Made by a program: the position numbers and the translations under genes
Assembly: GCA_027492585.1 (NCBI GenBank)
Contig: JAPUEK010000042.1
Span: 1 to 64,000 of the forward strand
Length of the DNA: 64,000 nt
Reading direction: 5' to 3'
From: Paracoccaceae bacterium
GTDB taxonomy: Bacteria; Pseudomonadota; Alphaproteobacteria; Rhodobacterales; Rhodobacteraceae
Notes under the pieces: model-generated
Told to the model about the DNA's origin: nothing
The model's input: the letters and a program-made list of their open reading frames with translations, nothing else
The model's database searches: none
In this document: positions 62-16,201 of the stretch, one piece after another
How positions within the stretch are numbered: the stretch's first letter is position 1
How the letters are laid out: every line of letters starts with the position of its first letter

Positions 62-98
62 ACAAATTTCCCTTATAATTCAGACACTTAGCGGGTCG

Positions 99-146
99 TC
101 CGGAACAGTCCTCCGGAACACTTTTCCGCGCCACATCACCGGAACA
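99..146 (+). repeat. Left array of TCCGGAACA repeats, 13-bp period
   Basis: Copies start at 99 and 112, with CCGGAACA again at 139. The intervening unit at 125 is degenerate (TCCGCGCCA) but keeps the 13-bp phase. The same 9-mer with the same period lies inside the right end (16094, 16107, 16120). A position just inside both att cores is what is expected of arm-type binding sites for a tyrosine integrase; that role is inferred. Confidence 0.75.
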
Positions 147-365
147 TAGCGCCTCATCGACTCGGCAACCATGCAGAAAGGGCGAGGCTTTCGCCCCGCC
201 CCTTCCGGCGTCATGGAGTAAGTAAGCACCAGCCCCGCTAGTGAGGCGTGACCGGCTGCACCACGCGGGCAAAGTGCAAAATCCCGCCGTGCCTTGTCGG
301 GGTTATGGGCATGAGGAACCCGCGCACTCACCGACTAATCGCAACGCTTCGGCCCTGCTTGGTGG

Positions 366-408
366 CCCGGCGCGTCAACCGTGTAGGTGTTGATACGGTC
401 GCGCCGGG
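366..408. other. Long inverted repeat in gene-free left end
   Basis: Arms CCCGGCGCG (366-374) and CGCGCCGGG (400-408) enclose inner arms ACCGT/ACGGT, giving about 14 paired bases with a 3-nt bulge. The stretch 62-430 otherwise holds no ORF with a convincing start or composition. The structure could belong to an RNA, a protein-binding site or the 3' end of a transcript; nothing in the sequence decides. Confidence 0.4.
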
Positions 409-430
409 GAAGTGTCGGTTGGGATGGGAA

Positions 431-460
431 GAAAAACGGGCACCTGTGAGGGTGCCCGTT
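431..460 (-). terminator. Rho-independent terminator after the 486-971 gene
   Basis: A perfect 10-bp stem (AACGGGCACC/GGTGCCCGTT, loop TGTGAG) is followed on the minus strand by a short T tract (TTTC). It lies 26 bp downstream of the 486-971 stop codon, where leftward transcription would end. Confidence 0.75.
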
Positions 461-485
461 CTGGTCTTTGTGATGGTGCTGCCGG

Positions 486-971
486 TCAGGCGGCTTTAGT
501 GTCCATGATCTCCGCTGCAATCTCCATGGCCTCGCCGGGGCGAAGTGCATCAGCGCCGCCACGCGCCCTGATTTCCAGCGCAATCTTCGCCAGCGTCGAG
601 TCGGGCGAAAGGAAAGTGAAAGCGGGCCGACCAACAACAGGTGCCAGCTTCTCGCGGATCAGCCGTGCGGCGCTGGCGTAAGTGCAGCCTTCGCGGGTCC
701 ACGTTCTAAACCCGGCACTGTCCAGCACATCGCGCATGTCACCATGGGCGAGGTCCGGCACCTTCGTGTTGATGGTCAGCACCCAATGGGCATCCTCATA
801 AAGACGGCGCTTGGTGTCATAGCTGCCACCGCCGTAACGGTATCCACCGAGAGCGTTGTGGAAGACTTCGGTGGCGGTCATGGTTGCCGCTTCGGGATTG
901 GTCGTGGTATTCATGCGAATATCGTTTGCTTGATCGTGGGATTCGGTAGACGACTTCAGAAGATCGCTCAT
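486..971 (-). CDS. Hypothetical protein of the mobile element (161 aa)
   Basis: I do not recognise a family. ATG at 971 is preceded by GAGGTG with 7-nt spacing, and a strong terminator follows, so this is very likely a real single-gene unit. The first 35 residues are polar and Thr-rich. A compact part follows with a GGYRYGGG stretch, YEDAHWVL, and an acidic helical C-terminus ending MDTKAA. There is no signal peptide or membrane segment, so it is probably cytoplasmic. Its place just inside attL, away from the structural genes, is where regulatory, excision or cargo genes usually lie. Confidence 0.7.
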   Translation of the reverse strand: MSDLLKSSTESHDQANDIRMNTTTNPEAATMTATEVFHNALGGYRYGGGSYDTKRRLYEDAHWVLTINTKVPDLAHGDMRDVLDSAGFRTWTREGCTYASAARLIREKLAPVVGRPAFTFLSPDSTLAKIALEIRARGGADALRPGEAMEIAAEIMDTKAA

Positions 972-1134
972 GGTTCACACCTCATATTGAGCGTTACGTT
1001 CTGGCCGGTGCGCTAACACCTGCCGCTCTTGCTTCGCAGCGGCGCTAACCGCTGCGGGCAAACCTACTAGTAAGCACCTTTTTTCAAGCGCGCTCTTGGC
1101 ATTATTTCGGCTAAACCATTGATTTCACACAAAC

Positions 1135-1150
1135 TGAACTGACCAGTTCA
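1135..1150. promoter_or_regulatory. Palindrome TGAACTG-AC-CAGTTCA, operator candidate
   Basis: Perfect 7-bp arms with a 2-bp spacer lie in the gap between the two leftmost minus-strand genes (972-1169). The size and symmetry fit a dimeric repressor site controlling the 486-971 gene. No repressor gene is recognised in the element, so the cognate protein is unknown. Confidence 0.5.
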
Positions 1151-1166
1151 ATCACGTTTTCGTGAT
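1151..1166 (-). terminator. Small hairpin ATCACG-TTTT-CGTGAT
   Basis: A 6-bp stem with a TTTT loop ends 3 bp past the stop codon of the 1170-1364 gene. On the minus strand there is no clean T tract after it, so it is only a weak terminator candidate. It also abuts the palindrome at 1135-1150 and may be part of one regulatory island. Confidence 0.35.
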
Positions 1167-1169
1167 AAT

Positions 1170-1364
1170 TTACCGCGCCACCACCCGCAGCCCTTCCGGC
1201 CCGTAGTTCTCGCAGCAGACCGAAGGCAGCACGTTCGCGGCCATCAGGGCCTTCACAAGTTCGTCGTGCAGGTCGGTGGTCGCGCTGGTGGCAGCGGTGA
1301 TGAACGCCCCGGCCAGATCGGCAAGCAAGCGGTCATAAGCGTTCTGGGTGAGAAAGTGGGGCAT
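1170..1364 (-). CDS. Small hypothetical protein (64 aa)
   Basis: ATG at 1364 follows AGGAAC about 8 nt upstream. The product is a short, mostly helical cytoplasmic protein (NAYDRLLADLAGAF... HDELVKALMAAN) with a CC pair near residue 49. The family is not recognised. The upstream DNA (1420-1460) is AT-rich, consistent with a promoter. Excision-directionality proteins of phages and islands are often this size, but there is no clear helix-turn-helix, so that role would be a guess. Confidence 0.6.
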   Translation of the reverse strand: MPHFLTQNAYDRLLADLAGAFITAATSATTDLHDELVKALMAANVLPSVCCENYGPEGLRVVAR

Positions 1365-1491
1365 CGGGTGTTCCTGTGTTGCTCGATGACAGGAACCTAG
1401 CCGACCGAAGATTCAGCCGTCAATCCATTAAATTACATAAATTCAATGACTTAAATAGCTGTCTGGCTAGGTAGCTGGATAGCTACGCCAC

Positions 1492-1530
1492 AAAAGAAAA
1501 CGCCCTGCCGGTCAGGTTCACCGGCAGGGC
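1492..1530 (-). terminator. Strong minus-strand terminator
   Basis: An 11-bp perfect stem (GCCCTGCCGGT/ACCGGCAGGGC, loop CAGGTTC) is followed on the minus strand by TTTTCTTTT. It is the first clear stop signal leftward of the tape-measure gene and of the 1603-1785 ORF, and probably ends the late transcript. Confidence 0.8.
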
Positions 1531-1602
1531 ATCTATAGAGGGCGTAGTTGGAAGCCAGCCCTCCCCCGTGTGTTATATTATTACACTCAAGCCAGAATCC
1601 CT

Positions 1603-1785
1603 TCAAGGGGTTTCAGCGTGGTCGTGCAAGAAAATCACCGGGCCGGAAGCTGCATGGCGTTCAGCGATAGCCACCAGTTCAGCCGGAAGGGTGCTGCAAC
1701 TTTTCAACCTGGTCTCGCGCCGGGCCGGGTTCGCCCACGGGCCTGCAAGGGCAAGGATCAGGTCTTTCGGGTCAATACGTTTCAT
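1603..1785 (-). CDS. Possible small protein (60 aa) downstream of the tape measure
   Basis: Two adjacent ATG codons (1788, 1785) follow TAGGAG; spacing favours the second. The product begins MKRIDPKDLILALAGP and is polar to amphipathic, with no recognisable family. It ends 73 bp before the strong terminator at 1492-1530. Support is the ribosome-binding site and position only; codon composition is not decisive at this length. Confidence 0.45.
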   Translation of the reverse strand: MKRIDPKDLILALAGPWANPARRETRLKSCSTLPAELVAIAERHAASGPVIFLHDHAETP

Positions 1786-1788
1786 CAT

Positions 1789-2457
1789 CGCTCCTACACT
1801 CGCCGCCTCTGGCGGCTCCCTGCGCCTCGGCCTGCGGCCTCGTTGCTGGCCTTCGCTTCGCTCCGGCCCTCGGTTCTGTTCTCTCATCCCGCCGAAGCAT
1901 CATCTGATGTTGAACAGTGTGAATATCACCTGCGGAAATAGACTATCCCCCCCCCCTCTCCATCCCAAGACGCGAAGTGTCGCGTCTGATGTGCGGGATG
2001 AAGAAAGGGGGATGTGTTCTGCGTTTAACAGTGGTGAACCGAACCTTGCTTGTCGAGCAAACCGGGCGGCTTCCATTACCCGGCGATATTCGGCGCATCC
2101 TGATCTTGCGATCAAAAGCGGTTGCAACCTTTCGGTTGCGCGACGTGACCGGCTTTCCTTCAACCTGCATCACGCCCGGCAGTTGTCACCCCATCCTTTC
2201 GGAATTGGACATTGCTGCCGTCTATTCGTGCTTCCTTCCCCTTGCGGGCGGCGGCGGCGTTTACCCCGGAACAATCCGGGCGCGTTCCTGCGTCCTACCA
2301 ACTGGACGACTTCCCCGCACCGTCTCGTATTCGGCTTTCTGGGGTTTTTCTGGCAAGGTTGGTAACGTATTCTAGGCGATTGACGATCTGCCTAGATGTG
2401 CCGGTGAGCGTCATTCCCCTAGGGTGTCTGCTCGAACCTGACTGCTTTGTGCTTGGT
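1789..2457. other. Gene-free stretch with a C10 tract
   Basis: No ORF here has a good start signal or recognisable product. It holds a run of ten C at 1947-1956 and a small hairpin AGACGCGA/TCGCGTCT at 1968-1987. In HK97-like phages the tail-tip and fibre genes lie directly downstream of the tape measure. Here that place is taken by this apparently noncoding DNA, possibly the scar of a lost tail module. Confidence 0.5.
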
Positions 2458-2499: not shown

Positions 2500-2511
2500 G
2501 GATTCAAGCGC

Positions 2512-4857
2512 CTATCGGGTGAGCATCCCGCCGGGTCGCATCTGTTGAATCAATTCCTTCTGGATCAGACCCCGGAACATGCGTTCGGTCTGTTCCGCCA
2601 TCTGCCGGGCCAGGTCTCCGTTCTGTTCCTGGGTTCCGCCCGAAGCGTTCACCGTCACGGGGGCGTTGATGGTGATGGCCGGTGCCGATGCCCTCGCAGG
2701 ACTCATAGGAGAGTCACCAGCGGCCCTTGCGACTTTTCCGGCGTCACCCACCAGCCCACCGCTTGCATAGCCCTTGCGGGCGCTCCTATGGAGTCTGTCG
2801 AGATTGGCAGCCCCGAGGCGCTGGACGGTTTCCTTGCTGAACACATATTCCCCGCGATGGACAACACCGGCAGGCTCATACTTCCCGCCCTGCCCCGTGA
2901 ACCCGCCATCCGCGAACCCGAGAAGCCCGCCGATCATGCCACCGATGCCGGAGCCAGAGAACAGCCCCATCAAGCCTTGCTGAAGCTGAACCTTCGCCAT
3001 CTGAAGCAGAAGCTGCGCCAAGGCTTCCTCGGCGCTCATGCTGCCATCCAGCACCGACAGGAACACATCGGACAGGGCTTCAGCCCCGCGCTTGCCTCGT
3101 TCCTCGACCTTCTTCATATCGTCGGCGGCTTTCTCGGCGGCATTGCCTGCCGCGATCTGCGCCTGTGCCAGCCGGTCAATTTCGGCGGTCAGTTCCGGGG
3201 TGATCGCGCGGCCGTCGCGTTGCGCTGCGTTCAGAAGTTCGGCCCGGATGCGCGCATACTCGATGGCATCGCCAAACTGCATCCCGGCGTCATGGGCAGC
3301 GAGAAGCGCGACGGTTTGAGCATCAAGCGCAGCCCGCTCACGGGCCAGACCTTCAACAGCCTGTTCATACTCAGCCTGTGAACGCCCGCCACCACCGCCA
3401 CCGCCGGAAGCCTTCGGAAGATCAGGCACCCCGAAGTCAGGATCATTCGGCGCAGGCGCCGGTCGCTTGGAAGCGGTCGGGGCAAGCGCGCTTGGCGGCA
3501 ACAGGTCGCCACCAGCCCCGGTCAGAGGAATCCCGGTGTCCATCTGGGTAAGCGCGCTGATCTCGTTCCGGGCGGCACGGGCGGCGCTGGGAAGCTTGGC
3601 GATCCAGTCCAGGAGCGATTGCACCTGCCCGATAACACCACCAAGACGCGCTTGGTCGAGCGCGCCCATTTCCGCGATGGTGTTCTGCGCCTCGGTCACA
3701 ACCTCCCGCAGCCGATCGGCATATTGTTCGCCGGTAATGTCGCCTGCCTCAAAGGCGCGGGCGGCATCCCCGATCCGGCTAGCAAGATCGGTCAGGGCGG
3801 TTGCGCCCGCCTCGTTGCCGATGCCGCGCAACATCATCGAAGCATCCGACAACGCCGAAACCAGCATCCGTGCTTCGGTGGCTAGGTCGGCATACTCGAT
3901 CTTCAGACTTTCGACCTGTTGAATCGCCTCCTGCGAAACCTCGGGCAATTCCCCCAAGGCACCGGCAACACCACCCCCGAGAAGCCGGGCGGTTTCGACA
4001 GGATCGAACTTCAGCTTTTCCTGCTCCCGCTCGACCAAACCGAAGTAGGTGGCGGCCTCCACCGTTGCCGTCTGCCAGAAGGTTTGCACACGCGCGGTCA
4101 GTTCGGAGTATTTGGCATCAAGATCGGCGGCCTTCTTCACCGCCCCCTCATCCCAGACAAGGCCAAGCTCTTTCGCGCGCTCGATCTGCAACTGGATACC
4201 GGCAGCGCCCTTGTCGAGAAGGTTTGCGAATTGCTCCCCGCCGCTGCCACCGAAGATCTCTTCCAGAAGGAATGACTGGCCCGCCTGATCGAAAGACTTC
4301 AGCCGGTCGAGAATATCCACCACAAGGGCGGAAGGATCTTTCAACTTGGTCTTCAGGTCTTCGGCGGAATAGCCAAGCTTCTTGAAAGCCTCGGCCCCTG
4401 CCCCGGTGCCATCAAGGAAGAACTCCCCGGCCCGGATATGCAGTTCCTTAAAACCATCGGTCAGGGCGTCAATACTCACCCTGTTCTGATCGGCAACGAA
4501 CTTCCATTGCTGGAAGGCTTCAACCTGCATCCCTGCCCGCTTGGCGGAATCTCCGATCTCGGCAATGGCGCGGGCCTGTTGTCGCATCGAACTGACAACG
4601 CCCGCCACGCCCATGCCTGCGACAGTGCCAGCGATACCGGCAATCTTCGGCATGGCAATGGCCTTGAAGGCAGCACCGATACGCCCGCCCATGCCTTCAT
4701 AGGTGGTGGCGATCTTGTCGGCAGACTGCTTGGCCTTCGCCTCCATCTGCTTTGAGGCTTTGGCCTGAATGGAATTGGCGCGGGCGAAGTCGCGTTGAAG
4801 CTGGCGGGTCTGCGCTTCAAGCTTGATGATCAAGCCCATCATATCGGCATCGGACAT
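2512..4857 (-). CDS. Phage tail tape measure protein
   Basis: 781 aa. An N-terminal coiled coil (about residues 8-55, [13 protein letters not shown] then [13 protein letters not shown]) is followed by a hydrophobic Gly/Ala segment (about 68-95), a long helical middle, a poly-Gly linker near 485, and a lambda-type tail-protein C-terminus ([19 protein letters not shown] then [26 protein letters not shown]). Such proteins set tail length and are threaded through the tail tube. ATG at 4857 has GAGGTAA upstream; TerL ends 13 bp before. It is remarkable here because no tail tube or tail tip gene accompanies it, and the usual chaperone partners lie 6-8 kb away. Confidence 0.9.
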
Positions 4858-4870
4858 ACTCTTTACCTCA

Positions 4871-6502
4871 TCAGATACAGGTCAGCCCGAGAACATCGGG
4901 ATCGTCATAGCGGGAACGCTTGTTATGAGCGGTCACGGCTCGGGATACGGCCATTGCAGAGGCAATGGCGGCATCAATCTTGCCGTTGGATCGTTGCTTG
5001 TGCATCCGAACCAAGCCCGATTGCGGATTGGTCGAGACGGCCACATTGTCAAAGTGCTGGCGCAGAACCGGGTCGCCATTGTGGCGAATCAACTCACCGT
5101 TCACCGTGCGGATGAGGTTTCCCGTCGCCTCCGACATGATCAGCGCGCTTTGCGGATGGGTGAAGACAGGCAAGCCCGCATCGGCCAGGTTCTGTGTCAG
5201 GACGCGCGCTAGGGCCGGGTCCACCGCGATCTCCTGCACGTCATAGGTCGCGCACAACTCGCGGATATGGTCCTCAACCTGCTTCTGGTCGATCACCCCG
5301 CCGGGGCAAAGCTGGATCAGGTCCAGATCGGCCCATTGCTTGTAGGGCGCGCGGTCGCGGTGGCCTTTGGCTTCAAGATCAGCCCCCGGCACGAAACAGG
5401 TGTTGCGAAGCGTCACCTGCCCGTCAGGGTGGCGGAAGGCAATCGCAACTGCGGTCAGGTCGCCCGATTGCGACATATCCACCCCGACATAGGCCGGAAG
5501 CTGCTCAAGGTCGGCTGCGTCGTCGTCAAGCTTGCGCCGGTCATAGGACGGCATATCAAAGAGCGGATCGCGGCTGTTCCCGTGCCACTTGTTCAGGTGG
5601 TATTGCTGGAAGCCATAAGCCGCCGAAGGCATGTGCTGCGCCCGCTGCGCCTTGTTCCGCAGGTCTTTCAGATCTTGGAACCCGTCCTTCAGGCCGGGAT
5701 TGCAGCGATGCCAAACCGCTTCATCGGTCCAGTCGTCACCCTCCTGCATCTCAAAGAGGATCGGCAGAACCGAAGGGTCATGCACCTTGCCCAAGGCCAC
5801 GTCGCGCGCATAGGCGTATTGATCGGCGGCGAAGCCTTCTGCGCCACGTCCGGCGGTGGTGGCGGTGATGATCAGCCCGTTCCGGCTCTTGGACACGCCG
5901 GATTCCAGAACTTCCCACATCTCGGCCCCTGCACCTTCCTTCCATGCGTGAATCTCATCGCAAAGAACAAAGGTCGGGGTGGTGCCGTTCTGCCGGGAAC
6001 CATCCGAAGAAACAACTTCAAGCTTCGACTCGAAGCCTTTGATCAGGCTCTCAATCTCTTTGGCGGCGTTGCGCTGGTCAACGATCTTGGTCTTGGCTCC
6101 AAGCCGTAGGTCGAGCTTCACGATATTCGTTGCTTCCTTGAAGGCGATACCAGCCTGCCGCTTGTCGCAGGCTGCAAACACCAGCTCCCCGCCCGGCACC
6201 TTCTCCGGGCCGATCAGGTGCAGGAGCGACAGTGCAGCGGAAAGGCTGGTCTTCCGGTTGCCGCGCGGGATGAAGAAGAACACCCGTGTTACGATCCGGT
6301 CGCCGTCTGCATCGCGCGGCCCATAGATCGCCCTGACAATGCGCTCCTGCCATGGGTAAAGCGTGAAGGCCCGGCCCGGCTGGTCGCTCTTGATGTGGCG
6401 CAGGGCGCGCAGGAAGTTCACGGCGCGCTCACCGTGGCCCAGAGGGTCAGGAATGGGGCTGGTGTCAAACACCCATGCCGGGAAGGTGGAAGGCGCGGCC
6501 AT
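4871..6502 (-). CDS. Phage terminase large subunit
   Basis: ATP-driven DNA-packaging motor and nuclease of the HK97-type TerL family. The ATPase half has a Walker-A-like PRGNRKTS near residue 80 and a Walker-B FVLCDEIH. The nuclease half starts at [15 protein letters not shown] and includes IAVDPAL and a late Asp in [10 protein letters not shown], giving the acidic residues of an RNase-H-like fold. Length (about 543 aa) is normal. TTG at 6508 would overlap the TerS stop as TTGA; ATG at 6502 is equally possible and used here. It follows TerS with translational coupling. Confidence 0.95.
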
Positions 6503-6504: not shown

Positions 6505-6903
6505 TCAAATGTCCAGCGGGTTCGGGCTGGTGTCGCCGCCATCTGGATCAGAACCCGCACCGATCCGCGCCCGGCTCACCGGGTCTAGCCCTAGGGTCGC
6601 GGCGATCTGACGGGCGGTCTGCGCCGCCCGGTTCTGAACACCGAACAATTTCGGGTCGATCACCCCGCCCGCAAGTTGACGCTCAACTTCAACTTGGCGA
6701 ACCAAGCCGCTCATAAGGCAGTAAGTTTCGACCTGTGCCAGATCGGCGGCATTGATGGTTCGCCGGGCGACAAGCACCGGCAGAACCCGCTTCCACTCGG
6801 CCCGCGCATAGGTGCTGAACCACGCGGGCGCTTTGGGAACCCGAAGAATCGGCTCCTGATCGGCGGCGATCCGGGGCTTGACCCCGCGAAGGTGCTTGCT
6901 CAT
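6505..6903 (-). CDS. Phage terminase small subunit, P27 family
   Basis: 132 aa from MSKHLRG. P27-type TerS features are visible: a basic N-terminus, the PAWFSTYARAEWKRVLPVL segment, a helical ADLAQVETYCLMSGLV region and a C-terminal acidic tail. It recognises the packaging site and loads TerL. The ATG at 6903 overlaps the adaptor stop as ATGA, so the genes are translationally coupled. Confidence 0.88.
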   Translation of the reverse strand: MSKHLRGVKPRIAADQEPILRVPKAPAWFSTYARAEWKRVLPVLVARRTINAADLAQVETYCLMSGLVRQVEVERQLAGGVIDPKLFGVQNRAAQTARQIAATLGLDPVSRARIGAGSDPDGGDTSPNPLDI

Positions 6904-7211
6904 GCCGCCACCGCCCGCAGTTCCAAGCCCTTCCTGCGCCCGATCTCTGCAATGGCGACGATGTTCCATACCTTGCCGCCGTGCAGGATGCGGTCAGAGA
7001 CCGACACGCCCGGAAGCCAGCGGATCAGGAACGCGGCGGTGTTGCTGGTGCCTTCGCCGTAGCTGGTCAGGAACTCGCTGATACCGGCTTGGCGTAGTTC
7101 CGCCTTCCCGGTGGCATAGGTGGCCCAAGTCTGAACCTGTTGATGGTTCGCCCCTTTGGTCTTGGTCAGCCGCTGTAGTTCGATCACATGCTGAAGTTTC
7201 CCGGCCTGCAT
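6900..7211 (-). CDS. Phage head-tail adaptor (closure) protein
   Basis: 103 aa starting MQAGKLQHVIELQRLTK, the typical opening of the SPP1 gp16-like head-tail joining family. These form a ring under the portal/connector to close the filled head. The ATG at 7211 overlaps the preceding DUF3168 stop (ATGA) and its own stop overlaps TerS. An earlier in-frame Met at 7226 exists but lies inside the preceding gene. Confidence 0.85.
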   Translation of the reverse strand: MQAGKLQHVIELQRLTKTKGANHQQVQTWATYATGKAELRQAGISEFLTSYGEGTSNTAAFLIRWLPGVSVSDRILHGGKVWNIVAIAEIGRRKGLELRAVAA

Positions 7212-7633
7212 CAGTCGGCCCTCCACCGCAGCACCGCCCGCAGAGCGATAGCACCGTGCGTATAGGACCGCTCAGGCGCAGGATCTCGCATCCAGACCAG
7301 TTCCGGGCGCTGCCAGTCGTCAATGGCGAAGCCATCGGGCCGGGGCGCATCCATCAGGGCCAGCATGGCGGCGGCGGCAATCGCCTGCGCCACCGTAGAG
7401 CCATCTTCCACGGCCCAGAGGTGCAACATCATGCAGACCTCGGCCACGGCATGACCGCCCGCCGCATGGCCCAGGAACACCACCCGCGCCGGTGCCATCA
7501 CGATTGCAGGCATGTCAGCCGGGCGGATTGATCCGGTCGAGATGTTCAGCGGGTCAATCAGCGCCGTGATCTTCGGAACAGCAGTCAGCGTGTCACCGAT
7601 CAGCGTCTGAAGGGCAAGGGTCGGGTCCATCAT
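7211..7633 (-). CDS. DUF3168 tail-completion protein
   Basis: About 140 aa starting MMDPTLALQTLIGDTLTAVPKI. Length, N-terminal helix and conserved C-terminal beta region (THGAIALRAVLRWRAD) match DUF3168 proteins, which terminate tail tubes or join the tail to the head completion ring. The start (7633 or 7630) overlaps the gp10 stop. In this element it is one of few tail-interface parts present, consistent with a head able to accept a tail. Confidence 0.8.
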   Translation of the reverse strand: MMDPTLALQTLIGDTLTAVPKITALIDPLNISTGSIRPADMPAIVMAPARVVFLGHAAGGHAVAEVCMMLHLWAVEDGSTVAQAIAAAAMLALMDAPRPDGFAIDDWQRPELVWMRDPAPERSYTHGAIALRAVLRWRAD

Positions 7634-8088
7634 TCCGCAGCCCTCTTCACTTCGGCCCGGATCACGCGGCGCAGGCGGTTCTTCACCCTCTTCATGTTCA
7701 GCCGCCAAGCTGGCAGCAGGAAGGGTTCCGCAGGCATCTTGCCCGTGCTGGTGCCGTCCTTGTGGTGGCGCTCTTCGGTGCCGAACTCCACAAGATGTCC
7801 GTGGCGCGCATCAGGGCTGCCAGCGGTGACGAAAGCCTGCCCGTCTTCGGCGGTGCGCCTGCCGCCGTTGGCGGCATAGGCCGGTGTCGTCTCGCCGGGG
7901 CCGGTGGCATCAATCGAGTCGAGCAAGGCACCCGTGCGCCGTGAGGTTTCGGCAAGGGAGCGGGCATCAGCCGCCACTTCCTCCGCAGATCGCTTCAGCG
8001 CGGGGTTCAGCGCCTTGGCGACCTCCGCCGGGATGGCAGCGAGGCGTCGTGCCAGAGCCTCAGAGCCTTTGACATAGCGGCCCATCAT
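7630..8088 (-). CDS. HK97 gp10-like head-tail joining protein
   Basis: 152 aa. It begins MMGRYVKGSEALARRLAAIP, contains the AADARSLAETSRRTGALLDSI helix and a VEFGTEERH segment, and ends with a basic helix (RRVIRAEVKRAAE), as in HK97 gp10-family neck proteins. It overlaps the connector gene by 4 bp on one side and DUF3168 on the other. Confidence 0.85.
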   Translation of the reverse strand: MMGRYVKGSEALARRLAAIPAEVAKALNPALKRSAEEVAADARSLAETSRRTGALLDSIDATGPGETTPAYAANGGRRTAEDGQAFVTAGSPDARHGHLVEFGTEERHHKDGTSTGKMPAEPFLLPAWRLNMKRVKNRLRRVIRAEVKRAAE

Positions 8089-8387
8089 GCGGCCTCCGGC
8101 TGGGGCCGGTGGCCTGTGACGCGATCCTTCAGCGGCGACAGAAGATCATGCACCCCGAACGGAAGCTGGTAGGGGCTGGCAAAGGTGACGCCCTCGCGGC
8201 TCTCATACTGGTGCGCCACCAAGAGAAGAGCCGCCTGCACCATCAAGGCGTTGTCGGCGGTGAAGGGCTGGCCCGTGTAAGCTTGAACCCATGCCTCGGC
8301 CACGTTGCCGTAATGGGTCAGAAGTTCGGGGTCGCGGTCGTCGTCAAGGTTCAGATGCGCCCGGATCAGGGCAATTGGCAGGGGCAT
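8085..8387 (-). CDS. Phage head-tail connector, gp6-like
   Basis: 100 aa. The N-terminus (LIRAHLNLDDDRDPELLTHY) and the following helices with YTGQPF and LLLVAHQYESRE match the Phage_connect_1/gp6 family, which docks on the portal. It is the first gene of the left structural block. An AT-rich repeat shared with the portal gene lies 37 bp upstream of its start. No good Shine-Dalgarno is visible before the ATG. Confidence 0.88.
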   Translation of the reverse strand: MPLPIALIRAHLNLDDDRDPELLTHYGNVAEAWVQAYTGQPFTADNALMVQAALLLVAHQYESREGVTFASPYQLPFGVHDLLSPLKDRVTGHRPQPEAA

Positions 8388-8644: not shown

Positions 8645-9355
8645 ATGGGGACGCCTATCCATCAATTGCTTGCAATAGCCCTTTCTTTTGCAATGATCCT
8701 TATCAGTTCACCATCTAGCTTGCTTGCCCAAGATACCCAACTATCAAACGCAGAAATTAGCCAGATTGTAGAAATTATTGCAGATGGGTGCCATTGCAAG
8801 TCTGATGGTCGCGGCTGTGATTCAACCGGAGTATATGTTGCCCCATTTGGTTTCTCTATCGTCAACGTTAAGCCAGCAGCGCGCACCAAAAAGACTGGCA
8901 CCTTCAAAATCACAGGGCGAACCCAACCCAACTATATACTTGCCAAGAATATAACCACCACCGATGTGAGTGCATTGATCGGGGAAATGGCCAAAGAATC
9001 TAAAGACACGAACACAGAAGCTCGCCTTTTAGCCATTGCCTCAGCAGTCAACACGCTTAGGGTGATCGAATCTGCATCGTATGCAGTTATAAAATCACAA
9101 TGCCATACAAATAACCCTTTGAACTATGCAAAGGACCATCATAGAACCAAACCAGTTCGCGACGCCCCTCCAGTATCGTTCGCAAGAGGTGAAATATTTG
9201 TTAAATGGAATCTGCAATTATTAAGACAGCCTACGGTTGATGATTTCAAAAAAGTCGTAGTTGAAATTATTAAATACTCCCAAGATCAAAGCGACGATCA
9301 CTTCATTAAATCCGTTGAAACATTAGAAAAGATGATCGCCGCGAATCCAGTCTAA
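8645..9355 (+). CDS. Secreted hypothetical protein, low-GC cargo gene
   Basis: 236 aa. A Sec signal peptide is clear: short N-region, hydrophobic LLAIALSFAMILI, then SLLA-QD as a likely signal peptidase I site near residue 28. The mature part has four Cys, three of them clustered (CHCKSDGRGC) and one later, and ends in charged helices. GGAGG lies 6-7 nt before the ATG. Base and codon use are much more AT-rich than in every neighbour, and it is the only plus-strand gene between two leftward phage blocks, so it looks like a recently acquired lysogenic-conversion (moron) gene. I recognise no family. Confidence 0.85.
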   Translation: MGTPIHQLLAIALSFAMILISSPSSLLAQDTQLSNAEISQIVEIIADGCHCKSDGRGCDSTGVYVAPFGFSIVNVKPAARTKKTGTFKITGRTQPNYILAKNITTTDVSALIGEMAKESKDTNTEARLLAIASAVNTLRVIESASYAVIKSQCHTNNPLNYAKDHHRTKPVRDAPPVSFARGEIFVKWNLQLLRQPTVDDFKKVVVEIIKYSQDQSDDHFIKSVETLEKMIAANPV

Positions 9356-9359: not shown

Positions 9360-10055
9360 TCAACTATCAACCTCCACCCTCACACACTTCCCCCGCAGAT
9401 CACCAGGGCGTAGCACTTCCTCCACCGGCCAGCCCTTATCCACCCTCTCGCGGATGGTGAACCATGACAGGCCGGTGCGCTCGGCCCATTGGCGATAGGT
9501 CAGCGTCTCGCCGTTGTGGGTGATGGTGTTGGCGCGTTGTGCGCCGCGAAACTGGTGCGATTTGTCGGGGGCGACTGTCAGGGCATCGGCCACCGTCCAG
9601 CCAGAGCGAAGGCGGTTGCGTATGGCACCGGCAGATATACCCGTCAGTGCGGACCATCCCTTCACCGTCAAGCATCGCCCTGCGTGGTCGATAAGCCTGC
9701 CTCTGGTTCTAGCAGCCTTTGGCGTGATCTGCTTGGGCAGCTTAGGCGCGGTCTCAGCCTTTGGCGGTCTCCCCATTGGCTTAGGCTTGAAATTCACAAC
9801 AGGCACCGCAGCAACCTGCTTCTGCATCCGGTCTAGCAGCGCCTCCACCTCCACACCGGCAAGGGAACAAACAGTCGCAAGGTCTTTGCTTGGTGTGATC
9901 AGATAGGCGCGGGCTTCGGCGGTTTCCTGATAGGCGCTTTTCGGGATCGGCCAAGAGTCGGGTTCTAGGCGGGCGTCTGTGATGGTCTTTAGCAGAACCT
10001 CTTGCCAAAGGGCGCGCTCGCCGCTGGTGGCGCTTTCGTGGTTACGGATGACCAT
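9360..10055 (-). CDS. DNA-binding protein with two HTH repeats
   Basis: 231 aa. Residues 1-90 form a helical domain of unknown family. A GRPPK AT-hook-like motif follows near residue 95, then two homologous units: LTVKGWSALTGISAGAI...GWTVADAL (about 128-160) and LTYRQWAERTGLSWFTI...GWPVEEVL (about 185-218). This W-x-x-x-TGIS-x-x-TI-x-x-R-x-x-x-GW-x-x-x-x-AL pattern is a helix-turn-helix type common next to phage HNH proteins. The start overlaps the HNH gene by 14 bp. It may steer the nuclease or act as a regulator; which is not shown. Confidence 0.75.
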   Translation of the reverse strand: MVIRNHESATSGERALWQEVLLKTITDARLEPDSWPIPKSAYQETAEARAYLITPSKDLATVCSLAGVEVEALLDRMQKQVAAVPVVNFKPKPMGRPPKAETAPKLPKQITPKAARTRGRLIDHAGRCLTVKGWSALTGISAGAIRNRLRSGWTVADALTVAPDKSHQFRGAQRANTITHNGETLTYRQWAERTGLSWFTIRERVDKGWPVEEVLRPGDLRGKCVRVEVDS

Positions 10056-10392
10056 TCGCGGCCCGCTCCTGCCTCTGCTTCTCGGAATCGTGACAGCGCT
10101 TGCACAGGGCTTGCAGGTTGTTCCATGAGAAGATCAGCGCAGGGTCGCCCCGGTGGCGCTTGATATGGTCCACCACCTGCGCTTCAGCACCGCAGAAGGC
10201 ACAGGTCGGGTGCAGGCGCAGGAACTCGGCCCTTAGCGCTTCCCATTGGCGCGTGTAGCCCCTTTGGCGGCTGTTCGGGCGCCTCGCATCATGGCGACGG
10301 TTGCGGGCGCGTATGGTGGCCCTCTGACACGCGCAGAGGGTGCCGGAGGGAACAAGCGCACCACAGGAACAAAGGCGCGGTGGTGCAGGCAT
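10042..10392 (-). CDS. Phage HNH endonuclease
   Basis: 116 aa. The HNH fold is visible as CAFCGAEAQVVDHIKRHRGD, then a loop with WNNLQALCKRCHDSEKQ, including two CxxC zinc knuckles and the catalytic HI. Additional Cys residues lie in the N-terminal CSCGALV...CACQ. Small HNH proteins of this sort work with TerL in genome packaging of HK97-type phages and capsid-encoding satellites. It is expressed in one leftward block with the capsid gene. Confidence 0.9.
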   Translation of the reverse strand: MPAPPRLCSCGALVPSGTLCACQRATIRARNRRHDARRPNSRQRGYTRQWEALRAEFLRLHPTCAFCGAEAQVVDHIKRHRGDPALIFSWNNLQALCKRCHDSEKQRQERAANGHP

Positions 10393-10419: not shown

Positions 10420-11052
10420 TCAGGTCATGGCTTTCAGAGCTTGAAGGCCCTCGCGGTCGAAGGCCGGATCGAACCCCTGATCCTCGATCTGTCGCAGGCG
10501 TTCAGCGGTATATACGTCCTGACCCTTGGCGCTGTTCGCCGGGATGCTGCCGGGGGTCAGACCGGCCCGGCGAAGTTCGCGGTCAGCCTGCGCTTCCAGT
10601 GCGGTGACGATCTCAGCGACAGAAGCGTTCCAGACCTCGGACGGGGGCCAGTGCAGCCAGCTTGTCGCCCGGCTGAACAGTTCGATGAAGAACTGCGCCA
10701 AGGGCATCGGATCAGCGGGTTGCGGTGAAGGTTCTGCCTCGCCCTCTGCCGGTGCAAGGATAGCCGACAGAAGGGCGAGGCAGGCCGCTTGCGCGCATTG
10801 GGCGAACTGCACAAGCGGATGAGTTGCGGCATGGGCCAGCAGGCGTTCAGCCTCGGCCCGATCCGTCGCAGATGTCCGGATCACCGCATGAAGGGCAGTA
10901 AGTTTCAGCCGGGCGATACCATCCCAGAGGGACGCGATACCGCCCGGAAGGGCTTCAAGGGCGACTGCCACCCGCAGGGATGCCCGCAACGTCACGGCAT
11001 GGGGGCCGATCTGAAGCGGGATCTCCGATGCGGGTTGCAGCGCCGAAGGCAT
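10420..11052 (-). CDS. Tail assembly chaperone-like protein (two-part)
   Basis: 210 aa. The N-terminal half (IGPHAVTLRASLRVAVALEAL, residues 12-105) resembles GTA gp10/Phage_TAC_11-type proteins. The segment around 120-175 (FFIELFSRATSWLHWPPSEVW) resembles the second, small chaperone that normally follows. This suggests a fusion of the two chaperone parts that other phages make from adjacent genes or by frameshifting. Family assignment is from pattern only. It sits 3 bp after the capsid gene, not beside the tape measure it would be expected to serve. Confidence 0.6.
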   Translation of the reverse strand: MPSALQPASEIPLQIGPHAVTLRASLRVAVALEALPGGIASLWDGIARLKLTALHAVIRTSATDRAEAERLLAHAATHPLVQFAQCAQAACLALLSAILAPAEGEAEPSPQPADPMPLAQFFIELFSRATSWLHWPPSEVWNASVAEIVTALEAQADRELRRAGLTPGSIPANSAKGQDVYTAERLRQIEDQGFDPAFDREGLQALKAMT

Positions 11053-11055: not shown

Positions 11056-12606
11056 TTAGGCCGCCACGCGCAGTTTCACGAAACGGTCGGCATGGGTCAG
11101 ATCAGCACCCACGCGGCGGCGGGCGATGAACCGGACCTGCCCTTTCGTGCCGAGCGTGTAGGGGTCGCGCAGAATGGACAGGTCCACACGGTCGAAGATG
11201 CGGTAGCCCGACATATCCCCGAACATGATCGGCGCAGCACCTGCGGCCACGTTGTCCATATCCGGCATTTCCACGATGGGATTGCCCAGAAGGCGCAGAA
11301 CACCGCCATCTTTCGGGTCGGTGACAAGATACTGCCCTTGAGCGTCCTTGAAGCGCCGGATGGTCGAAAGCGTGGAGCGGTTCATCAGCCAGACCGCGCT
11401 GCGCGCGTGGAAGGACGGGATCGCGTGTTGCATGGCGATCAGCACATCGAGCGGGTTCGTCGCCGGGAAGGTTGCGGCCACGCCGGTCTTCACCTCGGCA
11501 ATGCCGGTTGCGGTCATCAGCCCGCGCGGCTGGTTGGTGCCGGTGCCTTTGACAAAGGCCAGCCCCTCCACCTTGGCGAAGCCCGAAGCGATTTCCCGGC
11601 TCATCACCCCTTCAAGGTCATAGGCGTTGTCTTCCAGAACCTTGTTCGTGGCGACGTAGAAGCTGGAAAGTTCGTGGTTGGCGATCTTGACCTGGCCGAA
11701 GGTCGGCTCGCTCGCGGTCATGTCGGCGCCTTCCTCGGTCCAGAAAGCGTTCACGCCGGTCAGCAGGGTCGGGAAGGTGATTTCCGGGCCGGTGACGGTC
11801 TGCACATCGGCATATTGCCGAAGCGGCGACATCTCGGTCAGGAGCTTCAGGATCTCGGCGCTGTATTCGGGCGGCACCAGATAGCCGCCATTGGCATTGG
11901 ATGCGATGGCAAGCGCCTTCGTCTCGGTGGCATCCATGCGGGCTTCGCCAAGGCGCAGATAATTGCCGAAGGCCTTGCGCTCAGGGGCGCCCTGCACGAC
12001 GACAGGCGCGCCGAGGCGCTGGCCTTTGGCCTCAAGCTTGTCGATGCGCTTCGCTTCGGCATCAAGCCGCGACAGGACCGCGTTGAAAGCCTTGGTGTCG
12101 ATCTCCGGCGCATTGGCCGGAACTTGGGATTCGTCTTCGTTTTCCACTTGGGGAACTCCGTTACTCGGGACAGATTTGACAGAGGTGATCCGCGCGCCCG
12201 GATGAGACGGGACGGCAACAATGCTGATTTCGTGCAGTTCAAGGGCGCTGATCGTGCGCCCCTTGGCATGGCGCTTGGCGCCTTTGGTGACGAAGCTGAT
12301 AGAAAGGCCCGAGACGGCACCCGCCTTGACCATCGCGCGGACCTCGCGGGCGCGCTCCACATCCTCCACCAGCAGGCGACCTTTGACGGTCAGGCCCTCG
12401 GGCGTCTCTGCAATCTCATCCCAAACCCCGATCACCTGTGCATGGTCATGGCTGAAGAGCATCGGCAGGGTCGCAGGCCCGGTGAAGGCCCCCTTCTCGA
12501 TCACATCACCCACGCGGTCAGGACCGGAGAAGGGCCACGCAAGGCCCGTGATCTCGCCCGCATCGGTGACGGAAAGCGCGGCCTTGATCTCGATACGGTC
12601 GGTCAT
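11056..12606 (-). CDS. Prohead protease-major capsid fusion
   Basis: 516 aa. Residues 1-145 are an HK97-type (U35) prohead protease: GLAWPF, SHDHAQVIGVWDE with the catalytic His, and VSGLSISF with the nucleophile Ser. An acidic linker and coiled coil (about 150-200) act as the scaffold-like delta region. Residues 215-516 are an HK97 major capsid protein (GGYLVPPEYSAEILKLL, FYVATNKVLED, GTGTNQPRGLM, GDMSGYRIFDRVD). The protease thus cuts itself from the capsid domain during head maturation. ATGA overlap with the preceding gene. Confidence 0.95.
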   Translation of the reverse strand: MTDRIEIKAALSVTDAGEITGLAWPFSGPDRVGDVIEKGAFTGPATLPMLFSHDHAQVIGVWDEIAETPEGLTVKGRLLVEDVERAREVRAMVKAGAVSGLSISFVTKGAKRHAKGRTISALELHEISIVAVPSHPGARITSVKSVPSNGVPQVENEDESQVPANAPEIDTKAFNAVLSRLDAEAKRIDKLEAKGQRLGAPVVVQGAPERKAFGNYLRLGEARMDATETKALAIASNANGGYLVPPEYSAEILKLLTEMSPLRQYADVQTVTGPEITFPTLLTGVNAFWTEEGADMTASEPTFGQVKIANHELSSFYVATNKVLEDNAYDLEGVMSREIASGFAKVEGLAFVKGTGTNQPRGLMTATGIAEVKTGVAATFPATNPLDVLIAMQHAIPSFHARSAVWLMNRSTLSTIRRFKDAQGQYLVTDPKDGGVLRLLGNPIVEMPDMDNVAAGAAPIMFGDMSGYRIFDRVDLSILRDPYTLGTKGQVRFIARRRVGADLTHADRFVKLRVAA

Positions 12607-12983
12607 GCGACCACCTGTAGGGCTGCAAAGTCGGCCTCTGCGTTGCGCGCCACATCCTCGGGCGTCTCGTCGGAGGCGGTGCCGGTCCAGCGCGCAGCCA
12701 TGATCTCGAAGGCCAGTCCCAGAACCTCGGCCAGCGGACGATTGACGCCATAGGCATCACAGAAGCGCTTGGCCTGTTCCGGGTTCATCCCGCCGCCGAT
12801 CAGACCAAGCCGGATGATCTCGCGCAGATATTCGGCGGGATAGGCCAGGTTCAGCATCTGGAAATAGAGCGCACCCACACCAAGGCCGGTGATCTTTTCC
12901 AGTTCGGCCAGCATGGGGTCGGTCAGGCAGAAGGTATATTCAGCATCACCGAAGAAAGCACGGTGCTGGATCAGGTCATTCAT
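12603..12983 (-). CDS. GTA gp10/TAC_11-like protein
   Basis: 126 aa from MNDLIQHRAFF; an upstream in-frame Met lies inside the portal gene. A short N-terminal beta part (FGDAEYTFCLTDPMLAELEKITG) and helical middle (YPAEYLREIIRLGLIGGG) resemble the GTA-gp10/Phage_TAC_11 family implicated in tail assembly. It overlaps the portal stop by 8 bp and the capsid start by 4 bp. Its place between portal and capsid is unusual for that family. Confidence 0.65.
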   Translation of the reverse strand: MNDLIQHRAFFGDAEYTFCLTDPMLAELEKITGLGVGALYFQMLNLAYPAEYLREIIRLGLIGGGMNPEQAKRFCDAYGVNRPLAEVLGLAFEIMAARWTGTASDETPEDVARNAEADFAALQVVA

Positions 12984-14196
12984 CTTTGGGTTCCTCGGGT
13001 GCAGCCGGTGCGGGTGCAGCGCCGGGCGCGGTGGTGAAAGGATTGGTGATCTCATTGCCTTCGGGCAGCGCGGGCAGGTTCAGCCCGCCCCTCACCTCGT
13101 TCGCGGTCATGGCCCCCATGGCGCGATATTGGCTGTAAGCGGTGGCGCGGGCGGCGAACTCCACCGACAACAGGTCATCGGGCGTGGCCTCGATGTAGAG
13201 CGAACCGCGCTCCTCGGGTGCCAGCAGCACCCGCGTATAAGCCGCCTGCCAGCGGGCGATCCAAGGCCGCAGGGTGCCGGTCAGGAAGTCGCGGTGCGAT
13301 TGCTCGAAGTTCGACCAAGTGGCCCGGCTGGTCTCATAGAGAAGCGCAGGCGGCACGTTGAAGGCACGAGCGATCTCGCGGATTTGTTCAAGGCGATTTT
13401 CAAGGAATTGTGCATCGGTGTTGTTGCCGCTGATTACCTGATAGGTCATGCCTTCATCAAGAATAGCGGTCTTGCCCGACTGTTCCCCGCCGTGGGTGTT
13501 GAACCAAGAGACGACAATCTTCTTCTGCGCTTCGGCGTCCAGCCTTTCTGGCCGAAGGATCACACCCGAGGGACGCCCGCCATTCTTGAAGAAACCGGCA
13601 AGATGGCCTTCAGCAGCAAGGCAAAGGCCAATGGCCTCGCGGGCCAGCACGACAGGCGACAGGCCCCGCAGCCCTTGGATATGCAGAACGTCATGGAAGG
13701 GCAGCACGATGTTGCCGCCGCTCTTCAACTGAACCCGATAGGAGGGTTCGCCGAAGTCGTCATATTCGACAGAGACCGCGCCGGGGTCCATCCGGTGCAG
13801 TTCCATCGCGCGGCCATCAACGCGAACGACATGAGCGAAGCCGTTGCCGGTCAGCAGGGCATCGGCGGTAAGCTGTTCCCGCAGTTCCTCGGCGCTGGTC
13901 CAGTCGTTTGCCCAGTCATGCACCAGCCGATAGGACGGATGGTCCTTCGCGGCTTCCTTGTTCTCGGCATAGGTCTTGAACGGCAGGGTGGCGACAGATT
14001 CAGCAATCAGCGACACGGCCCGACGAACAGCAGGAACCCGCATGGCACTTGCGGCGGTGACGGTCACACCAGAGGCAGAAGGCGTGATGCCGAACAGCGG
14101 AAAGGCTTCAGGGCTGGTCAGCGTGACCGGTTGAACCGACTTCGTTTCTGAAGCGCCTCGCCCGGCAATTCGGGCGAGGCTGGACATGATACCCAT
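12976..14196 (-). CDS. Phage portal protein, HK97 family
   Basis: 406 aa. Portal landmarks: AMRVPAVRRAVSLIAESVATLP near residue 50, LTGNGFAHVVR, the stem/wing region with VLHIQGL, and the clip/crown segment RAFNVPPALLYE followed by WSNFEQSHRDF. The C-terminus is Pro/Ala/Glu-rich and probably flexible. The dodecameric portal is the DNA gate of the head. It is the first gene of the right structural block. The sequence around the ATG (GTATACC-ATG-GGTATC) is itself nearly palindromic and lacks an obvious Shine-Dalgarno. Confidence 0.94.
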   Translation of the reverse strand: MGIMSSLARIAGRGASETKSVQPVTLTSPEAFPLFGITPSASGVTVTAASAMRVPAVRRAVSLIAESVATLPFKTYAENKEAAKDHPSYRLVHDWANDWTSAEELREQLTADALLTGNGFAHVVRVDGRAMELHRMDPGAVSVEYDDFGEPSYRVQLKSGGNIVLPFHDVLHIQGLRGLSPVVLAREAIGLCLAAEGHLAGFFKNGGRPSGVILRPERLDAEAQKKIVVSWFNTHGGEQSGKTAILDEGMTYQVISGNNTDAQFLENRLEQIREIARAFNVPPALLYETSRATWSNFEQSHRDFLTGTLRPWIARWQAAYTRVLLAPEERGSLYIEATPDDLLSVEFAARATAYSQYRAMGAMTANEVRGGLNLPALPEGNEITNPFTTAPGAAPAPAAPEEPKDE

Positions 14197-14218
14197 GGTA
14201 TACTCGTAAACGCACTAC

Positions 14219-14274
14219 GGTATCATAATACCACATGCAAGAATCCGCCCGCAAGGGAATTGTTATAGTATTAC
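14219..14274 (-). promoter_or_regulatory. AT-rich control region upstream of the portal block
   Basis: 14219-14236 on the minus strand reads ATGTGGTATTATGATACC, nearly identical to the copy at 8424-8441. GTTATAGTATTAC follows at 14262-14274, overlapping the integrase stop codon. TTGCAT on the minus strand, 17 nt before TAGTGC, could be a promoter spanning the repeat. Shared use by two structural blocks is inferred. Confidence 0.65.
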
Positions 14275-16070
14275 GTCACTAGATGATCCAGCTTCAGACC
14301 GGGATAGGCAATCGCGTTCACCAGTTCCACGCGCTGCTCCAGCATCCCTTGGGGCATGATGCCGTATTTGCCTGTCATGGTCGGTTCTGTATGTCCTAAA
14401 ATGAAGCCGAAGTGCTGATCCAAGAAACCACCCCGGCGCAAGGCATCAGCCGCCCCATGGCGGAAGGAATAGAGGCTAAGCCCCCTACCCTGCTTCAAGC
14501 CGATGCGGGTCATGTAGCGTCCGAACTCGCGGGACATATCCGCCATCATCTGCCCTCGACCATTGCGCTTGGCATCGGGGAACAGGGCGCTACCGCCATC
14601 CTTCACCCTGCCTTCGTGGTAACGGATGAAGCCGATCCGGATCAGTTCAGGGTGAACAGGCACCACTCGCATTGAACCTTTGGTCTTCACCGACTTGCCC
14701 TCATTGGTTTCATCGCCTTCGGTGGTGATGTGCATGATCCAATGACCATGCTCCTGCCGAACATCGTTTACCGCAAGCTGGCCTATCTCTCCCGGACGCG
14801 CGCCGGAGAAGAGCATGATCAAAGGCACCCAGAAGCGATGATCCCTGATCAGCACATCGCCGGGCTTGGCGACATTGCGCCATTCATCGGCACTCTGACA
14901 GCCCGCGAACCATGGCGAGTTGAACAGAGTGGTTAGTTGTTCCGTCTTGAAGGGCAAGGTCGGGGCCTTAGCCTCCTTCTTCAACATCAGCCCTTCAGTT
15001 GGATTGCTGGTCAGGTAGCCGTTGTTTACCGCCCATGACAGGAAAGCCCCGAGGCTGGACAGGTAGCGGTTCACCGTCCGGTCGGCCAGAACAGGCTTAC
15101 CAACTTCCTCGTTCGCCTTGACGGTCTGTTGAATGTTCATCCCGGCAAAAGCTTTGGTCTCGGTGGCCTTGACCGGATACTTCACCAGAAGCTGTTTCCA
15201 AGTGCGAACCTCGGCCTTGGTGATCATCGCAATGGGGAAGCTGGCTCCGACAAGTTCAACAAAGGTGCCAATGTCGCGGCGGCACTGGTCCACGCGATCT
15301 TTCGCCACCCCGCGCGGGTTCTCGCTGGCGAAGATCTCGAATATCTCCATGATCGTCTCGCCCGGCTTCGCAAACTCGCGGCGGGCGCCCATGGCAGGCT
15401 TCACCAGCGGGTCCGCAGGCAGACCACCATAATCACCACGATCACGCTCTAGGGTGCGCTGTAGGGCCTCCACCTCGGCGCGCATCATGTGCCGGGCAAG
15501 GCTGACCCACTCGGGCGTTCCTCGCGGCACCAGAAGGCGGTTCGCGTCAAGGTAAGCGTCAACTTCATGGGCGATCAGAGCGGTTTCACCCTTAGCCAGG
15601 TGTTTGCGAAGTTCGGCCAGCTTGATCTTGCGATGTTCGGACGAAACTTCCCCGGCACGTTGCGCGACCATCAGGTCAAGGCTCACATCCAGCACCTTCA
15701 AGGGTTCCAGCCCGCTCACGTCTTCCTTCTCGATCCGGTCGAGTGCAGCGGCCCGCGCAGCGTCAATGTCAGCTTGCGTCGGAAGGCTCGCCCGCTCTTT
15801 ATCGTCACGCTCCACAGTCGCGGTGTAGTGGTCCCAGACCGCATGTTCCCGGTCGGCAGGAACAAGCGCGCGGCGGGCGCGCAGGTCGTCAAACTCGCGC
15901 TGCCATCCTGCGATCACCGGGTTCAGCAGGCGCTTCGCAGCGGCCACGTCCTTCGTCTTCAGAGACTGCTTCAAGGTCGGCTTTTTCAGCACCGACACCA
16001 GATCAAGCGGAACATCCATGCGGGCGTAATAGACCGCTCCACGCCGCCACAGATACGAAACACCGGCCAT
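14271..16070 (-). CDS. Tyrosine recombinase/integrase (phage type)
   Basis: About 599 aa. The N-terminus (YLWRRGAVYYARMDVP) is the DUF6538 domain of phage integrases. A core-binding domain precedes the catalytic part: ARPGEIGQL (first Arg), YSFRHGAADAL (second Arg; the usual His of HxxR is Tyr here), GHTEPTMTGKYG with the late His and the nucleophile Tyr. ATG at 16070 has GGAGG 7 nt upstream; a TTG at 16076 is less likely. It catalyses integration at tRNA-Gln. The 13-bp-period repeats lie directly upstream and may autoregulate it. Confidence 0.93.
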   Translation of the reverse strand: MAGVSYLWRRGAVYYARMDVPLDLVSVLKKPTLKQSLKTKDVAAAKRLLNPVIAGWQREFDDLRARRALVPADREHAVWDHYTATVERDDKERASLPTQADIDAARAAALDRIEKEDVSGLEPLKVLDVSLDLMVAQRAGEVSSEHRKIKLAELRKHLAKGETALIAHEVDAYLDANRLLVPRGTPEWVSLARHMMRAEVEALQRTLERDRGDYGGLPADPLVKPAMGARREFAKPGETIMEIFEIFASENPRGVAKDRVDQCRRDIGTFVELVGASFPIAMITKAEVRTWKQLLVKYPVKATETKAFAGMNIQQTVKANEEVGKPVLADRTVNRYLSSLGAFLSWAVNNGYLTSNPTEGLMLKKEAKAPTLPFKTEQLTTLFNSPWFAGCQSADEWRNVAKPGDVLIRDHRFWVPLIMLFSGARPGEIGQLAVNDVRQEHGHWIMHITTEGDETNEGKSVKTKGSMRVVPVHPELIRIGFIRYHEGRVKDGGSALFPDAKRNGRGQMMADMSREFGRYMTRIGLKQGRGLSLYSFRHGAADALRRGGFLDQHFGFILGHTEPTMTGKYGIMPQGMLEQRVELVNAIAYPGLKLDHLVT

Positions 16071-16093
16071 GTCCAAGCCTCCAAAAGGGGGCG

Positions 16094-16128
16094 TCCGGAA
16101 CTCGATTCCGGAACACCTGTCCGGAACA
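16094..16128 (+). repeat. Right array of TCCGGAAC(A) repeats, 13-bp period
   Basis: Copies start at 16094, 16107 and 16120, exactly 13 bp apart and in the same orientation as the left array. They lie 18-58 bp upstream of the integrase ATG and about 75 bp inside the right att core. The likely role is integrase arm sites, with possible autoregulation of the integrase promoter. Confidence 0.78.
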
Positions 16129-16201
16129 CTTATGCTAAAAAAATCCTTTATATGTCAATAATATACAGGAAAATAAGGACTTACAAAAAGTTGGAAGAAT
16201 G

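Follow-up and report, generated by a model that had tools for sequence, protein, structure and literature searches.

A probable capsid-forming phage satellite of Alphaproteobacteria that encodes its own tape measure protein

The DNA described here (the window) is a stretch of 64,000 nucleotides from a Paracoccaceae bacterium (contig JAPUEK010000042.1, positions 1 to 64,000), at the left end of which a 16.16 kb element is integrated in a tRNA-Gln gene. The element is probably an intact integrative capsid-forming phage satellite, belonging to an alphaproteobacterial lineage that encodes its own head, tape measure protein (TMP) and tail assembly chaperones and takes the rest of its tail, and lysis, from a helper. 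Leftward from the right end lie an integrase gene and then an operon-like run of mostly overlapping genes: portal, a protein like gp10 of gene transfer agents (GTAs), S78 protease-HK97 capsid, TAC_6-like protein, HNH, DNA-binding-like protein, Ad1 connector, HK97-gp10 neck protein, DUF3168 terminator, head closure, P27 small terminase subunit (TerS), large terminase subunit (TerL) and a TMP of 781 amino acids (aa). Pfam and PHROG searches of the window proteins recognised no tail tube, tail tip or fibre, lysis, replication (primase) or repressor gene in the element. The original prediction had reported the same absences, and the integrase and the packaging and head genes that it called intact are confirmed by these searches. 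Its gene list stands with three corrections: a head-closure gene that is easy to overlook (6900-7211) is added, the gene at 12603 is GTA-gp10-like, and that at 10420 is TAC_6-like.

14271-16070, minus strand: tyrosine integrase with a DUF6538 N-terminus (PF20172, PF00589)
12976-14196, minus strand: portal protein (PF04860, E=5.6e-94)
12603-12983, minus strand: GTA-gp10-like protein, probably a tail assembly chaperone (PF11836, E=4e-22; helical model, no tail tube fold)
11056-12606, minus strand: S78 prohead protease fused to HK97 major capsid protein (PF04586, PF05065)
10420-11052, minus strand: protein with TAC_6-like C-terminus, tail assembly chaperone-like (PF09550 just under the cut-off; modelled as a beta hairpin plus helices)
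10042-10392, minus strand: HNH endonuclease (PF01844, phrog_144)
9360-10055, minus strand: 231-aa DNA-binding-like protein (phrog_3377, E=2.8e-14; repeat common to HNH-associated proteins)
8085-8387, minus strand: head-tail adaptor Ad1, gp6-like (PF05135, phrog_40)
7630-8088, minus strand: HK97-gp10-like neck/tail completion protein (PF04883, phrog_5)
7211-7633, minus strand: tail terminator, DUF3168, gp17-like (PF11367)
6900-7211, minus strand: head closure (stopper) protein, 103 aa (34-46% identity to annotated or syntenic head-closure genes)
6505-6903, minus strand: TerS, P27 family (PF05119, phrog_83)
4871-6502, minus strand: TerL (PF03354, PF20441)
2512-4857, minus strand: TMP, 781 aa (phrog_10574, E=2.6e-121, near full length)

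Conservation of the gene set among relatives

Recurrence of the compact gene set in other genomes had been set beforehand as a test, and the set was found in more than 100 other loci, the first instances of the same gene order being in Sinorhizobium meliloti pSymB, P. versutus pTAV4 and a P. marcusii plasmid. Scans with a capsid profile identified relatives in IMG/VR (306) and in GTDB genomes (245), and the 80 best of each collection were retained; a scan of genomes with TMP peptides had given no match, and the capsid alignment was used in its place. The conservation set comprises the 126 loci of the window's type that have a portal and TerL, and counts among them include near-copies and loci common to both collections and are not independent events. 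The gene order is kept in 119 of the 126, with HNH present in all, the GTA-gp10-like and TAC_6-like genes in 125 each, connectors in 124, homologues of the 231-aa DNA-binding-like protein in 106 and an integrase in 101. TMP is found in 109 of the 111 loci with at least 2.5 kb beyond TerL, where it would be visible. A lambda-type (Phage_tail_3-type) tail tube gene is present in three of the 126, a gpI-like lambda-type tail part in 16, and a gpM-like part in about two dozen capsid-selected loci; the addition of single tail parts in some relatives would be expected if the missing parts come from outside.

The TMP and both chaperone-like genes are under purifying selection in related pairs, with median dN/dS of 0.15 (TMP), 0.14 (gp10-like) and 0.24 (TAC_6-like) compared with 0.09 for capsid and 0.08 for TerL; the pairs overlap in their sequences, and these values describe a consistent trend with no formal test. 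Because the gene set is kept in more than 100 loci and is under purifying selection, the element did not arise by recent deletion from a full prophage, and that explanation was rejected.

Near relatives with a full tail or lysis module were also looked for. All open reading frames (ORFs) of all loci were searched with the tail hubs of phi2LM21, RcapNL and the host's own prophage, lambda L and K, NlpC, fibre, chitinase, holin and GTA g12-g15, and no homologue of any of these occurs in a capsid-selected locus; the sole exception is a peptidoglycan-binding match in L051, which is located inside a TMP. As a positive control, the phage-derived hub queries match up to 20 other loci, mainly full-length phages. 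The g12-g15 queries match no locus of the search, capsid-selected or other.

Named host genomes of the relatives are nearly all Rhodobacterales and Hyphomicrobiales, and in a sample of 398 genomes of the phylum strong matches are confined to the class. A search for the gene set at tRNA-Gln genes of other Rhodobacterales had been proposed as a check, and the nearest relative with flanks (L025, on the same contig as L228, Szabonella alba) is an 18.0 kb element in tRNA-Gln(TTG), with a 31 bp repeat and an integrase 81% identical to that of the window. In further relatives, elements of 15.0-18.5 kb occupy tRNA-Leu, Val, Thr and Gln. The P. marcusii relative is a circular plasmid of 17,494 bp with a replication initiator in place of the integrase, and a metagenome relative is a 16.5 kb circular contig with a 99 bp terminal repeat.

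In a second group (seven capsid-selected loci and four from the family search) a tail tube gene is accompanied by a TAC_18 chaperone and, in some members, by a distal tail protein. Loci of this sister group with their own tube and TAC_18 are L029, L030, L031, L121, L260, L264, L272 and L281-L283; the group includes two Bartonella loci, and some members carry a primase-polymerase. The searches found no hub or lysis genes in its capsid-selected loci, and from its gene content the group may represent an intermediate stage of tail independence.

Among other relatives, we note that pB146-3 (L284), pTT14-8 (L285) and pMPOP02 (L286) are circular plasmids of 16-23 kb from Methylorubrum and Roseomonas with related head and terminase genes, and no TMP is seen in pTT14-8. 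A small protein resembling ribbon-helix-helix regulators follows the TMP in 35 of 77 relatives (for example L003, 21154-21603) and is absent from the window element. A typical alphaproteobacterial member of the family is present in a record titled Exiguobacterium profundum (L239, CP059262), and the record name is probably wrong.

AlphaFold2 (AF2) models of the gp10-like (pLDDT 86) and TAC_6-like (pLDDT 88) proteins both consist of a beta hairpin plus helices, and Foldseek searches with these models gave no PDB match for either. In profile searches a TAC_6-like homologue lies directly after the tail tube gene in phage VW-6S and in plasmid pMPOP02. Because the folds are unlike a tail tube and the TAC_6-like homologue adjoins a tube gene, we infer from family, position and exclusion that both are tail assembly chaperones. 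The gp10 family (PF11836 and phrog_8985, window 12603-12983) carries the label tail tube protein. This assignment was considered and rejected for the gp10-like protein, since its model is helical and unlike the beta-rich tail tubes, no PDB tube was matched, and the RcGTA tube protein is g9; judged by the model, the label is probably wrong.

The satellite's TMP would set the length of the tail. An unlikely variant is that the element is a satellite as described above, with a TMP that acts in DNA ejection or wall degradation and has no role in tail length. The TMP gene of the Sinorhizobium relatives is annotated as a D-Ala-D-Ala carboxypeptidase family protein, and TMP length among relatives varies from 519 to 945 aa, both of which fit this variant; against it, the TMP is kept alongside two chaperone-like genes, of a type that loads TMPs with tail tube protein. 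The same Sinorhizobium genes (L005, 17986-20703; L287, 15644-18361) appear in PLSDB as predicted resistance genes (vanY, glycopeptides), a call that looks spurious, the genes being those of tape measure proteins.

Attachment sites and accessory genes

The ends of the element are defined by a perfect 19 bp repeat, TCCTAGCGCCCCAGCCAAC, at 43-61 and 16202-16220, with no third copy in the window; the original prediction had described perfect 19 bp att cores. The truncated tRNA at the left end aligns with the tRNA-Gln(TTG) of the nearest relative. Paired TCCGGAACA motifs lie directly inside either end, the placement expected of integrase arm sites, for which they are candidates. The G+C content of the element is mostly 53-65%, compared with mostly 62-72% outside it.

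1-59, plus strand: 3' part of tRNA-Gln, the host attachment gene (Rfam RF00005, 33.5 bits); the 5' end is lost at the contig start
43-61, plus strand: left copy of the 19 bp att core, an exact repeat and the 3' end of the tRNA
99-120, plus strand: two TCCGGAACA motifs 13 bp apart (starts 99 and 112), candidate integrase arm sites at the left end
486-971, minus strand: 161-aa ORF with a 45% identical copy at the same end of the P. versutus element
1170-1364, minus strand: 64-aa ORF with homologues in 22 of the 126 relatives
1603-1887, minus strand: 94-aa ORF, weakly supported
8645-9355, plus strand: 236-aa cargo ORF with a signal-peptide-like start and low G+C, on the opposite strand to the neighbouring genes
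16107-16128, plus strand: two TCCGGAACA motifs 13 bp apart (starts 16107 and 16120), candidate integrase arm sites at the right end
16202-16220, plus strand: right copy of the att core, an exact repeat

The 94-, 64- and 161-aa ORFs beyond the TMP have no family match in Pfam or PHROG. The 236-aa cargo ORF matches nothing in Pfam, PHROG or PADLOC and is present in the window element alone among the loci compared. Defence genes as cargo were rejected, PADLOC giving weak matches in one relative only. The gene at 9360 has a weak Cox-like match (E 3e-4).

Proposed mechanism and competing explanations

A scenario consistent with these genes is that the satellite would excise when a tailed helper phage becomes active, and its own terminase would package satellite DNA into its own heads. 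The TMP and chaperones would then recruit helper tail tube protein onto a helper tail tip, giving a tail whose length is set by the satellite and which would be joined to the satellite head by the satellite's terminator and stopper. The helper, on which we infer dependence for tail tube, tip and lysis from the gene content, would also supply the fibres and the inducing signal.

Several observations weigh against this interpretation. A helper was not identified and particles were not observed, and neither the AlpA/Stl-type regulators nor the primase of phage-inducible chromosomal islands (PICIs) are recognised in it by Pfam or PHROG. Given the diversity of tail tube proteins, one small ORF of the element might in principle encode a tube that goes unrecognised. 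No tail tube gene of the Phage_tail_3 type is present in the host genome, and 13 genomes with related TMP genes lack lambda gpL; a lambda-type helper is therefore not resident there, and this candidate was rejected. The host does contain a resident prophage on contig C94 (18-37.6 kb; L301, L302), a possible candidate helper: its head genes are different and look Mu-like, and its tail, with NlpC, a J-type hub and a TMP-like protein of 1078 aa, looks complete. Elsewhere in the host genome (contig C1, about 45,885-61,262; L290, L300) hub gene g15 of an RcGTA-like cluster is split by an integrative element of ~15 kb with a tyrosine integrase, an AlpA/MerR-like helix-turn-helix gene and a primase/polymerase-like gene, an insertion that would disable the host GTA.

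It is improbable that the element is a reduced prophage, which the original prediction had named as the main alternative: a once temperate phage deprived of its tail and lysis modules, now in decay or domesticated. Every structural gene does have phage homologues, a few relatives keep single tail genes, and some are broken, as in L036, where TerL is split by a transposase-like insertion. Nonetheless, the same compact set and order recur across Rhodobacterales and Hyphomicrobiales at different integration sites and on plasmids, the selection on TMP and chaperones is purifying, and tail hub and lysis genes of the kinds searched are missing from every capsid-selected relative. Still less probable is a satellite that borrows the tails of its host's own GTA rather than those of a phage. 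In its favour, the gp10-like gene falls in PF11836, a GTA family to which the host GTA also contributes a member, the capsids of element and GTA are related, and Rhodobacterales as well as Rhizobiales have RcGTA-like clusters (PMC11409702). A GTA partner is not supported, however: the terminator, stopper, neck, chaperone and TMP profiles have no match in the GTA cluster of the host, where the hub gene g15 is itself split by the other element, and the RcGTA TMP has about 216 residues (PMC7296036) compared with 781 here. Least probable is a minimal but complete phage in which the proteins for tube, tip and lysis simply go unrecognised: tail proteins diverge fast and three small ORFs and the cargo ORF lack a family, but those ORFs are all that is left over and, the 64-aa ORF excepted, few relatives have them, far more sequence is normally required for a hub or fibre, and the gp10-like protein labelled tail tube is helical in its model.

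A helper-dependent satellite thus remains our favoured interpretation. More tentatively, and with somewhat less confidence than doubt, we suggest that the lineage is widespread, independent of known capsid-forming PICIs (cf-PICIs), exists in integrated and plasmid forms, and makes chimeric virions with its own head, the helper's tube and tip, and a tail length dictated by the satellite. The conserved and selected gene set keeps the tail-templating parts (TMP and chaperones) and almost never the tube, and whether a parasite can re-specify the tail of its helper becomes testable. Of the short prophages of Rhodobacterales and Hyphomicrobiales that would be classed as incomplete remnants, at least some are probably satellites in an intact state, and the lineage would extend the plasmid forms of such satellites beyond Vibrio.

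Comparison with known systems

No isolate phage TerL is more than about 32% identical to that of the element and gp10 has no isolate match, so that an isolated phage as a close relative was rejected. The E. coli EDL933 element in the comparison is one that we take to be EcCIEDL933. In the TerL tree the window group, the tube-carrying group and pB146-3 stand apart from four alignable isolate phages, pTT14-8 and EcCIEDL933 (support 96/96), in a tree with long branches, a single cf-PICI and RcapNL too distant for placement. The original prediction of a cf-PICI relative with its own TMP and chaperones is supported as to a satellite; descent from known cf-PICIs finds no support in this long-branched tree. 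None of the tail tube, tip or fibre and lysis genes that mark an autonomous temperate siphophage is recognised in the window element.

Some tail and head components recall other systems. The siphophages RcapNL (Rhodobacter) and phi2LM21 (Sinorhizobium) have homologous TMPs (phi2LM21, 52.7% over residues 91-272), but are 40-47 kb long, carry hub and fibre genes and have different heads. RcGTA-like GTAs share the gp10 family, HK97-type head genes and a tail terminator, but encode a tail tube and baseplate g12-g15, have a much shorter TMP, and lack the integrase that the window element has, as well as att sites.

Among satellites, MulchRoom and MiniFlayer of Streptomyces resemble the window element, by description, in encoding capsid, portal, terminases and HNH themselves while no replication genes are recognised, and the tails of MulchRoom match those of its helper in length; they differ in being actinobacterial, in having virulent helpers, and in that for MulchRoom's system the authors detected no tail components beyond the helper's (PMC10690885). 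Plasmid forms of capsid-forming satellites (cf-PISP) are reported for Vibrio, and relatives of the window element include circular plasmids of about 16-23 kb; in the excerpted account the cf-PISP are from Vibrio only and no tape measure is mentioned, and the window element is itself integrative (PMC13230959). In the open-access literature searched, we found no report of an alphaproteobacterial satellite lineage with its own tape measure.

A close likeness is to cf-PICIs, which the excerpted text of PMC10690885 describes as helper-dependent for tails only and that of PMC10803314 as carried mainly by Enterobacteriaceae and Firmicutes groups; the window lineage, in Alphaproteobacteria, lies outside the main carriers listed there. 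The element shares with EcCIEDL933 an integrase, HK97-type capsid, portal, P27 TerS and TerL, a length of about 14-18 kb, and no tail tip or lysis genes. The EcCIEDL933 order is capsid, protease, portal, closure, connector, HNH, TerS, TerL, a head-first, terminase-last plan like that of the window element. The latter adds a TMP, terminator, neck protein and two chaperone-like genes, has its protease and capsid fused, and has no recognised AlpA or primase. Capsid, protease, portal, head-tail connectors, TerS, TerL, HNH, and integrase with att sites are all present as in a cf-PICI; by the definition excerpted from PMC10690885 a cf-PICI takes its whole tail from the helper, whereas here TMP, terminator and chaperone-like genes are encoded by the element. 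Judged by its genes, the element would work like a cf-PICI, but with tail-ruler genes of its own and a TerL that is phylogenetically apart from that of EcCIEDL933.

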